From Caldilineaceae bacterium (lineage in GTDB: Bacteria > Chloroflexota > Anaerolineae > Caldilineales > Caldilineaceae): 54,962 nucleotides of DNA. Positions within the stretch are counted from its first letter, which is position 1. Each line of letters opens with the position of its first letter. The stretch is taken from NCBI GenBank assembly GCA_020433455.1, contig JAGRCP010000067.1, forward strand, positions 1-54,962, in the 5' to 3' direction. Both the position numbers and the translations under genes were made by a program. The notes under the pieces are model-generated. The model did no database searches, was not told where the DNA came from, and was given only the letters and a program-made list of their open reading frames with translations. This document shows, piece after piece, positions 22,301 to 44,996 of this stretch.

Positions 22301-22627
22301 ATGCGTATCTTTCAAATGCAGCGCTACAGCGCGATCGCGCTTTTGTTCTTTCTGACCATCCACATGATCGTGGTGCACTACCCGCCGTTCCACATCGACT
22401 TTGACCGGATTCTGGAGCGGATGGACAATCCGCTCTGGAAGCTGATCGACATCCTCTTTCTCTTTGCGGTACTGGTCCACGCCCTGACCGGATCCTACAT
22501 GGTGCTGACCGACGTGGAGCGCTTTAACAGGATAAAGCGCGTCCTGGCGGGTGCGGCGATTGTGCTGGGCCTGTGGGCCATGTACTACGGAACCATGACG
22601 ATTCTGGCCTTCTCGCCGCCCACGTAG
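22301..22627 (+). CDS. sdhD: Succinate dehydrogenase membrane anchor, second hydrophobic subunit
   Basis: Membrane subunit of 108 aa with three hydrophobic segments (about 8-26, 48-70 and 82-104). FLTIHMIVVHYPPF and LVHALTGSYMVLTDVERF provide histidines suitable as heme or quinone ligands. GAGGGAG lies before the ATG. It is the last gene of the sdh operon and is followed by a strong terminator. The name sdhD is by position; the protein is too short and diverged for a finer assignment. Confidence 0.82.
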   Translation: MRIFQMQRYSAIALLFFLTIHMIVVHYPPFHIDFDRILERMDNPLWKLIDILFLFAVLVHALTGSYMVLTDVERFNRIKRVLAGAAIVLGLWAMYYGTMTILAFSPPT

Positions 22628-22655
22628 ACGAATCGCCATAAAAACATGAATTATG

Positions 22656-22698
22656 AAAAGAGCCGTCATCTTCCGGCCTGGAAGATGACGGCTCTTTT
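22656..22698 (+). terminator. Terminator of the sdh operon
   Basis: A perfect 19-base stem, beginning AAAAGAGCCGTCATC (22656-22674) and ending GCTCTTTT (22680-22698), encloses a 5-base loop. The A/T ends of the stem make it a possible bidirectional terminator. Confidence 0.85.
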
Positions 22699-22760
22699 CG
22701 CGATGCCCCGAAGCGTCAGGAGATCCGCTGCTTCGCTGTCGATTCGGCGGTTTGAGTGGA

Positions 22761-22855
22761 AAAAATTATAATGAACATCTATTCCATTATAATTTTTGGC
22801 CGAAAATTATAATGACTCGTCGCATCATTGTAATTTTGCTCCTCAAATTATAATG
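22761..22855. repeat. AT-rich palindromic array, 41-bp period
   Basis: The word AAATTATAATG appears on the plus strand with cores starting at 22765, 22806 and 22847. Its inverted form CATTATAAT (or CATTGTAAT) starts at 22785 and 22826. Both series repeat every 41 bp, giving two and a half units of one palindrome. It is the most AT-rich spot in its surroundings and contains TATAAT on both strands. It looks like a set of operator sites or the terminal repeats of a lost element. Confidence 0.7.
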
Positions 22856-22907
22856 GAACAGACGCTGATGTTCATCTCATGGGCAAAACAGACTGGTGGG
22901 AAGCGCC

Positions 22908-23030
22908 GTGAACAACCCGCGTATCATAACACGAGATCTGGCCGCGGCGGCTATCCTCCTGCTTCTCATCCTGGGGTTTCATCAGCGGCGATGTGCAGGC
23001 CGGCGGGGCGGGTTAACGGCTACTTGGTGA
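22908..23030 (+). CDS. Possible small membrane peptide, 40 aa
   Basis: A GTG-started frame of 40 residues with one hydrophobic stretch (LAAAAILLLLILGF, about 11-24) followed by a basic, Gly/Arg-rich tail. GGGAAG lies 5 bases upstream. It begins about 50 bases after the palindromic array, which could regulate it. It may instead be the truncated 5' end of a larger exported protein. No homologue is recognised. The rest of the gap before the DUF1269 gene shows nothing else. Confidence 0.25.
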   Translation: MNNPRIITRDLAAAAILLLLILGFHQRRCAGRRGGLTATW

Positions 23031-23184: not shown

Positions 23185-23751
23185 ATGTCGGAAAATCTCA
23201 ATGATCAGGTGATTGTCGGTTTCTTTACCGATCAGGATGCGGCCGATAAAGCGGCCGATGCGCTGATGAACTGGGACGATGCCAATGACGACATCAAGCT
23301 CGGGACCATCGGCTGCGTCACGTTAAATGAGAAGGGGAAAGTCCATACCAAGCGTTACGGCGAGGGGCGCACTGTGCGGGGCGCGCTGCTGGGCGGCGCG
23401 CTCGGCTTGGTGGCGGCCGGTCTGACCAGCGGTCTTTCGTTGCTGGCCGGGACGCTGGGCGGCGGCGCGCTGGGCGGCGTCACGGGCAAGCTAACGACCG
23501 GCTCACTGGGATTGACCGATGACGACGTAGCAAAGATCAAGTCTCATCTGGAAAAGGGCGGCGCGGCGGTTGTGGTTCTCTGCGACAGCAGCGAATCTGA
23601 ACAGACGATTGCCCAGTTGGAGAGTATCGGCGGCACGGCTCAGGGCTTTGGCGTTTCCAACGACGTGTTGGCAACCATCCACGAGAATCAGGCGGAAAAA
23701 CTGCACGATCAGCAGGTTGACGAGACCATGGAGGACAGCGAATTCATTTAA
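23185..23751 (+). CDS. DUF1269-type membrane-associated protein
   Basis: Protein of 188 aa starting at ATG 23185 after AAGGAGG. VIVGFFTDQDAADKAADAL at the N-terminus and a central Gly/Ala-rich hydrophobic hairpin (LLGGALGLVAAGL to LGGGALGG, about 68-105) match the DUF1269 pattern, in which a ferredoxin-like domain is interrupted by a glycine-zipper segment. The C-terminal part (GGAAVVVLCDSSESEQTI) repeats the alpha/beta unit. The function is unknown; such proteins are often called general stress or membrane proteins. The start at 23086 is rejected for lack of a ribosome-binding site. Confidence 0.7.
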   Translation: MSENLNDQVIVGFFTDQDAADKAADALMNWDDANDDIKLGTIGCVTLNEKGKVHTKRYGEGRTVRGALLGGALGLVAAGLTSGLSLLAGTLGGGALGGVTGKLTTGSLGLTDDDVAKIKSHLEKGGAAVVVLCDSSESEQTIAQLESIGGTAQGFGVSNDVLATIHENQAEKLHDQQVDETMEDSEFI

Positions 23752-44057: not shown

Positions 44058-44996
44058 CTACCCCCCAATCTTGTTATATGCAGCCTCAATGAACAGCTTT
44101 ACCCGTTCAAACTCCTCTTCTGACGAAACGATGAATTCAGCATCCCCGGTGCCGGAGTGGCCAATCTGTGAAACATCTCGATAAAACGGGGGCGGTGAAT
44201 CAATTTCATCCGCCCTCAGCTTCACAAAGAGTTTGATGTTGCGGCCGTGCGGCTCCATACACACAAGATTCTGAGTTGTCTTGTAGGCGACATAGAATTT
44301 TTTCGGCGCCTCTTCAATTGACGGGTCGAGTCCAACGATATATTCACGAATTAAATACATGAGAGAACGAATATGAGAAGGTTTCCCCTCAAGATGTTCT
44401 TCAAACGTATACGTAGCTGTCGCCCGAACAAGCGCCGCCTTTTTACCGGCTTCCACCATAACGGGGTTCTTTCCGCTTGATCCAATGGGCAAAGAGGCAG
44501 TTACCCGAGTTGCCTGAAATACTTCTTCCAAGTAGATGGACTCGTTCTTGAATAATCGGTATTTCCATAACTCGATATTTGCGCCCATCACCTGCACAGC
44601 GTGTAAATCGTATTTTTTGTAGTTTGGTGCAATGCAAATAACACGCACATCGGACCAGTCTACTTCGACGTCATTCCCGAGTTCTCTTTGGACAGCGATT
44701 TCGAAATCGCCTTTATGATCTTGGATCCAGTTCAAATAGAAAAGGCTCTGTGTGATTAACTCGGATGATTCAATCTTCTTGTATTCAATGATAACCGGAT
44801 TGTTGTCTTCGGATAAGGCAAGGCTGTCTATCCGGCCGGCGTGCAATGTGCCGGTGAAGAATTCCGATGCTACGAAACGACAGTTGAAAACGACAAGAAG
44901 ATTTCTTTCAATCAGGGTTTGCAACTCTTTTTCCACTTTAAAGTTCGTCTGTTCCACGGAAGTGAGAGTCGTGCCTGAAATTTCAAAAAACGGCAT
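44058..44996 (-). CDS. DUF5655/DUF91-like protein with a PD-(D/E)xK nuclease core
   Basis: Protein of 312 aa. GRIDSLALSEDNNPVIIEYKK gives D57, E71 and K73 in the D-x(n)-E-x-K order of the PD-(D/E)xK nuclease fold, preceded by a helix with conserved Glu residues (ELQTLIERNLLVVF). ELWKYRLF and the C-terminal HGRNIKLFVKLR and GDAEFIVSSEEEFERVKLFIEAAY segment match the DUF5655 module. Such proteins are widespread and uncharacterised; a DNA-cleaving or defence role is plausible but unproven. Its sequence is clearly AT-richer than its neighbours, and transposase debris lies at 45.6-46.2 kb, so horizontal acquisition is likely. Confidence 0.7.
   Translation of the reverse strand: MPFFEISGTTLTSVEQTNFKVEKELQTLIERNLLVVFNCRFVASEFFTGTLHAGRIDSLALSEDNNPVIIEYKKIESSELITQSLFYLNWIQDHKGDFEIAVQRELGNDVEVDWSDVRVICIAPNYKKYDLHAVQVMGANIELWKYRLFKNESIYLEEVFQATRVTASLPIGSSGKNPVMVEAGKKAALVRATATYTFEEHLEGKPSHIRSLMYLIREYIVGLDPSIEEAPKKFYVAYKTTQNLVCMEPHGRNIKLFVKLRADEIDSPPPFYRDVSQIGHSGTGDAEFIVSSEEEFERVKLFIEAAYNKIGG

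Follow-up and report, generated by a model that had tools for sequence, protein, structure and literature searches.

A five-site array of phased, alternating AT-rich sequences downstream of the sdh operon in a Caldilineaceae bacterium has the geometry of a putative protein-binding element

The window analyzed here is a 54,962-nucleotide stretch that is part of one contig of a Caldilineaceae genome (5.25 Mb in 172 contigs). Genes named from their translations as sdhA, sdhB, sdhC, and sdhD lie upstream of the array described below, and the products of the last two match Sdh_cyt in Pfam. The gene immediately to the left of the array encodes the sdhD-like membrane subunit (22301-22627, plus strand) and is followed, after 28 bp, by a perfect 20-bp inverted repeat (22655-22699, plus strand). 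This repeat probably terminates the sdh operon, in which case the array is likely to be excluded from the sdh transcript. To the right, the first plausible gene begins 330 bp beyond the last site of the array and encodes a DUF1269 protein of 188 aa (23185-23751, plus strand). An initial annotation of this DNA had noted a small membrane-peptide frame and a stress-type gene following the array in otherwise GC-rich surroundings. The frame is present at 22908-23027 (40 codons from a GTG) but has no Pfam match. The stress-type gene corresponds to the DUF1269 gene at 23185, and the flanking DNA is indeed ~58-60% GC. No transposase was found among the genes neighboring the array. Elsewhere in the window, a gene of markedly low GC content (44058-44996; about 43-49% versus 60%) was possibly acquired; its 312-aa product resembles a restriction-type nuclease and may be DUF91/DUF5655-like.

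The array occupies 22763-22855 and consists of five copies of AAATTATAATG in strictly alternating orientation. Site 1 (22763-22773), site 3 (22804-22814), and site 5 (22845-22855) carry the exact sequence on the plus strand, and site 2 (22785-22795) carries it on the minus strand. Site 4 (22826-22836, minus strand) reads AAATTACAATG, with one mismatch. The initial annotation had described five alternating copies within 95 bp, which is accurate in count and orientation but overlooks the inexact copy. Like-oriented copies are spaced exactly 41 bp apart, as had been claimed. The whole 11-mer had been called a palindrome; in fact, only its 8-bp core ATTATAAT (22765-22772 in site 1) is a true palindrome. 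The distances between core centers are 21, 20, 21, and 20 bp, or two helical turns. Two turns is therefore the basic period, with the 41-bp repeat distance arising from the alternating flanks. The cores are arranged head to head and tail to tail, nearly on one face of the helix. The linkers differ from one 41-bp unit to the next, so simple tandem duplication does not account for the array.

A chance origin of the five-site array is excluded. In dinucleotide shuffles of the window, AAATTATAATG with one mismatch allowed occurred 0.24 times on average, at most twice and never five times. Shuffles of the 96-bp array segment, which keep its AT content, yielded no 11-mer in more than two copies, compared with the five observed. 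In the whole genome, exact AAATTATAATG occurs six times, with four of these occurrences in the array and the other two single. The initial annotation had proposed a genome search for the 11-mer and had raised the possibility that the word occurs at random frequency in AT-rich spacers; by both kinds of shuffle and by the genome count, its frequency in the array is not random. One singleton (contig C89) lies upstream of an ORF truncated at the contig end and is preceded by CCGA, like site 3. The ATG of the other (contig C104) is the start of a gene judged by eye to encode a ROK-type regulator. No other alternating cluster (at least four 9-mers within 160 bp) was found in ~340 kb of sequence, ~300 kb of it from this genome, and genome-wide counts were drawn from pattern searches plus this kind of sample of stretches. 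Since the exact 11-mer occurs only twice outside the array, no regulon is apparent, nor is there any indication that a regulator carries the site in its own promoter. TATAAT is contained in every site except the fourth. A promoter array was nevertheless rejected: two sigma-70-like matches were found, versus 0.8 expected, both on the minus strand and directed toward the sdh terminator.

Sites 2 to 5 are held within an imperfect inverted repeat (22771-22876, no strand assigned). Its ungapped arms (22771-22815 and 22825-22869) are 78% complementary. A gapped alignment extends the match to the 9-bp sequences ATGAACATC and GATGTTCAT, which terminate the repeat and leave site 1 partly outside. The linker bases of the two halves also agree, so part of the array probably arose by inverted duplication. 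As RNA, the array folds on the two strands with energies of -39.9 and -40.3 kcal/mol (z -4.6 and -4.9 compared with shuffles), and the change in site 4 would preserve a G-U pair on the plus strand. These features could reflect a transcribed hairpin, in which the inverted repeat, lying between sdhD and the DUF1269 gene, would act at the RNA level as a terminator, stabilizer, or small RNA. We consider this improbable, as such folding is inevitable for any alternating inverted sites, and a strong inverted repeat is already present upstream at the sdh operon. A search of Rfam found no family at its gathering score, the best match being to a microRNA family (29.8 of 53 bits). Moreover, the related copy described next has three sites without the outer pairing, and on inspection it shows no compensatory changes relative to the array.

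A blastn search with the intergenic region against 46 genomes detected one diverged copy, in genome G419, which belongs to another genus of the same family. The match covers 72 bp at 75% identity (E = 1.6e-4, the value for that one genome) and pairs 22791-22862 (plus strand) with C82:60683-60754 of G419. The G419 copy has three sites, and its geometry, AAATTATA-N17-TATAATTT-N8-AAATTATA, is identical to that of sites 3 to 5, with exact spacing and all 24 of 24 fixed bases matched. The GGCCGA directly before site 3 also resembles the AGCCGA of the G419 copy. With up to three mismatches allowed, this pattern was found in 2 of the 46 family genomes (this one and G419), while the reversed-pattern control matched none; the pattern search thus recovered no relative of the array in the other 44. 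In a sample of 400 genomes from the phylum, the geometry occurred at chance level only, and the reversed control matched two genomes. Within the family, model R1 and the pattern searches identified only the array locus and G419; because R1 includes G419, its E-values for that genome are circular. G419 has an estimated contamination of ~10%.

Comparison of the two copies revealed that 27 of 28 core positions are identical, versus 20 of 39 linker positions (Fisher P = 4e-5), in what is a single pair of loci with core and linker limits that we chose. The linker identity is nonetheless above chance (P = 0.0015), so the array and the G419 copy are probably homologous, with only the cores and their spacing held and the linkers drifting. 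Conserved cores between drifting linkers favor constrained sites over plain tandem duplication. We also considered coding potential: TAATG overlaps within the sites would allow tandem, translationally coupled mini-ORFs, with two 13-codon frames, MNIYSIIIFGRKL and MTRRIIVILLLKL, each ending in a stop, at about 22771-22812 and 22812-22853. The length of 14 codons, less a 1-bp overlap, matches the 41-bp period. This reading is extremely unlikely, however. The G419 copy retains the AAATTATAA cores without an ATG, there are only two short units with no clear ribosome-binding site, and the residues that the units have in common are simply a consequence of the DNA sites.

The G419 copy is flanked by an N6-methylase gene on one side and, on the other, by GC-rich 25-bp tandem repeats that adjoin a small GIY-YIG gene. 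Nothing at that locus matches sdhD or DUF1269, and no neighboring gene is common to both loci. In G411, the nearest relative in which both the sdhD and DUF1269 genes occur, SdhD is 75% identical to that of the present genome, and the gap after sdhD contains no array. The DUF1269 orthologue of G411 (54% identity) sits elsewhere in its genome, also without an array, and none was obvious upstream of the homologue in G406; an operator of the DUF1269 gene was rejected as a candidate. Control of the stress-type gene by the array is therefore unsupported. Given the unrelated neighbors in G419 and the array-free loci in G411, the array is not tied to any particular gene. The presence of a relative in an unrelated place suggests that the element is capable of moving, or of being transferred, as a whole. 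By eye, an apparent different intergenic repeat, AACGCGGATCGCGCGGATTTGACGGAGCATCGCGGATTTTTCAG, is located ~30-100 bp past the sdhD stop in G411 (L215, reverse strand of the locus).

The main rival to a binding-site reading is that the array has no regulatory role and is a decaying copy of a palindromic repeat dispersed among intergenic regions, either MITE- or REP-like or of the inverted-minisatellite type, that sits in the gap downstream of the sdh terminator. We regard this as a real, if somewhat doubtful, possibility. The long inverted repeat, the linker homology between its halves, and the ATGAACATC/GATGTTCAT ends of 9 bp are in keeping with such an origin, as is the relative in an unrelated context adjoining GC-rich tandem repeats. 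The different repeat that apparently occupies the G411 sdhD gap suggests that gaps of this kind may collect repeats. REP elements (GTAG and CGTC super-families, PMC3733652) and MITEs are likewise palindromic and intergenic, lie downstream of a gene, and form head-to-head or tail-to-tail pairs. Unlike them, the array is AT-rich, has no association with a transposase, and is found at one locus in this genome rather than at tens to thousands. Within 22761-22876, GTAG is absent, and CGTC occurs only in the center and one arm, not beside a stem end.

The dispersed-repeat explanation is further weakened by the presence of the array at one locus here and at one among 45 family relatives, by the absence of a transposase nearby, and by flanks in which no target duplication was seen by eye. 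Drift of the linkers with the cores and spacing kept is also unexpected in a dead repeat. Overall, a decaying repeat explains the unrelated contexts better than binding sites do, but it explains the conservation pattern worse. An active transposon end is unsupported; no transposase, second genome copy, or clear target-site duplication was found, and the same findings speak against the array being the eroded end of a known transposon, which the initial annotation had raised. The origin of the array was perhaps dispersed, palindromic, and once mobile.

Our preferred but tentative reading, to which we give slightly less than even credence, is that the array is a small intergenic element of putative protein-binding sites that are phased along one face of the helix and would be occupied cooperatively, in the manner of Lrp/AsnC operators. 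Lrp-family regulators bind cooperatively to clusters of palindromic sites that have AT-rich centers spaced two or three helical turns apart (PMC2995911). The array likewise has several short, AT-centered, (semi-)palindromic sites at two-turn phasing (21/20/21/20 bp) over ~100 bp in total. It differs from these operators in that its sites are nearly identical to one another, whereas Lrp sites are usually degenerate, and in that no Lrp gene adjoins it. The genome encodes three Lrp/AsnC-domain proteins, and the exact 11-mer is absent from all contigs carrying the three AsnC genes; no regulator gene was found among the neighbors of the array. For operators of this type, a regulator gene next door or a corresponding site in the regulator's own promoter is common but not universal. 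We consider the likeness to Lrp systems to be one of mode of action and not of membership.

In this putative element, the five AT-rich sites, with their core AAATTATAA containing the palindrome ATTATAAT, lie two turns apart, nearly on one face of the helix. Most likely, a dimeric or oligomeric DNA-binding protein would load cooperatively along ~95 bp, as Lrp/AsnC-type regulators do, and the loaded protein might wrap or bend the DNA and thereby affect local transcription or chromatin. The element would be partly the product of inverted duplication and would move or transfer as a unit instead of belonging to one gene. Binding, its cooperativity, and any regulatory effect are all inferred. Cooperative binding on one helix face would be expected to conserve the cores and fix the two-turn spacing while the linkers drift, which is the pattern observed. 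The cooperative dimeric binding suggested by the initial annotation is thus consistent with the two-turn geometry and with the conservation in G419, but the two loci have no neighboring gene in common. If the sites are bound, the array could serve directly as a short bait for a DNA-binding protein from a bacterial lineage that has been little studied. It would also be a natural example of phased palindromes in strict alternation, with a geometry that is kept while the linkers drift. If the sites are not bound, the array is simply a decaying repeat of an ordinary kind. A more specific version, which we consider unlikely, is that the array and its G419 relative represent an undescribed, rare element of the family, mobile or horizontally exchanged, in which a dedicated protein loads onto the conserved, phased cores. 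With the same low likelihood, such a protein might be, for example, a domain organizer or silencer that acts independently of neighboring genes.

Several other origins were rejected. There was no plasmid match; phage matches extended over just 30-35 bp (E of 0.01 or worse), and viral pattern matches were low in GC or otherwise dissimilar to the array. Repeats that flank a GIY-YIG gene are an arrangement known for site-specific single-strand nucleases and their target repeats, and a small, repeat-flanked GIY-YIG gene is present 0.4 kb away from the G419 copy. The repeats flanking that gene, however, are GC-rich and unrelated to the array. In G419, such GC-rich repeats (ACCAACACCAGCGACGCCGGTTG and relatives) are present on both sides of the small GIY-YIG gene (L144 1575-2311; L245 10735-11854). 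Target repeats of the GIY-YIG (Ssn) type were rejected for the array because the present genome has no small GIY-YIG gene, its sole PF01541 match being in a UvrC-like open frame of 644 aa, and only one of the other array loci (L128) has a convincing GIY-YIG motif.

To survey wider occurrence, a genome collection was scanned for three ATTATAAT words at 19-22-bp spacing, which returned 104 stretches. Many of these, in Bacteroidota and Verrucomicrobiota, consist of 19-22-bp units repeated head to tail. One Bacteroidota locus, together with one of the genomic singletons, gave rise to the idea of a UPF0175 antitoxin operator, which was rejected since no common neighbor was seen by eye among the array-side ORFs in the higher-GC part of the 104 matches. 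The head-to-tail arrays in these phyla and others resemble the present array in their core word, their spacing of about two turns, and their mostly intergenic position. They differ in their single orientation and, in many cases, their minisatellite-like repeated linkers, and the likeness is probably convergent. Several have clearly repeated linkers. The head-to-tail arrays score only weakly against the model of the present array, and no neighbor gene common to them was seen by eye. Most likely, they are unrelated minisatellite-like repeats that contain a common AT-rich word. Head-to-tail ATTATAAT arrays of 20-22-bp units were recorded at L035, L039, L042, L045, L048, L050, and L055, and further examples at L057, L068, L097, L100, L103, and L128, with several per genome in some bins.
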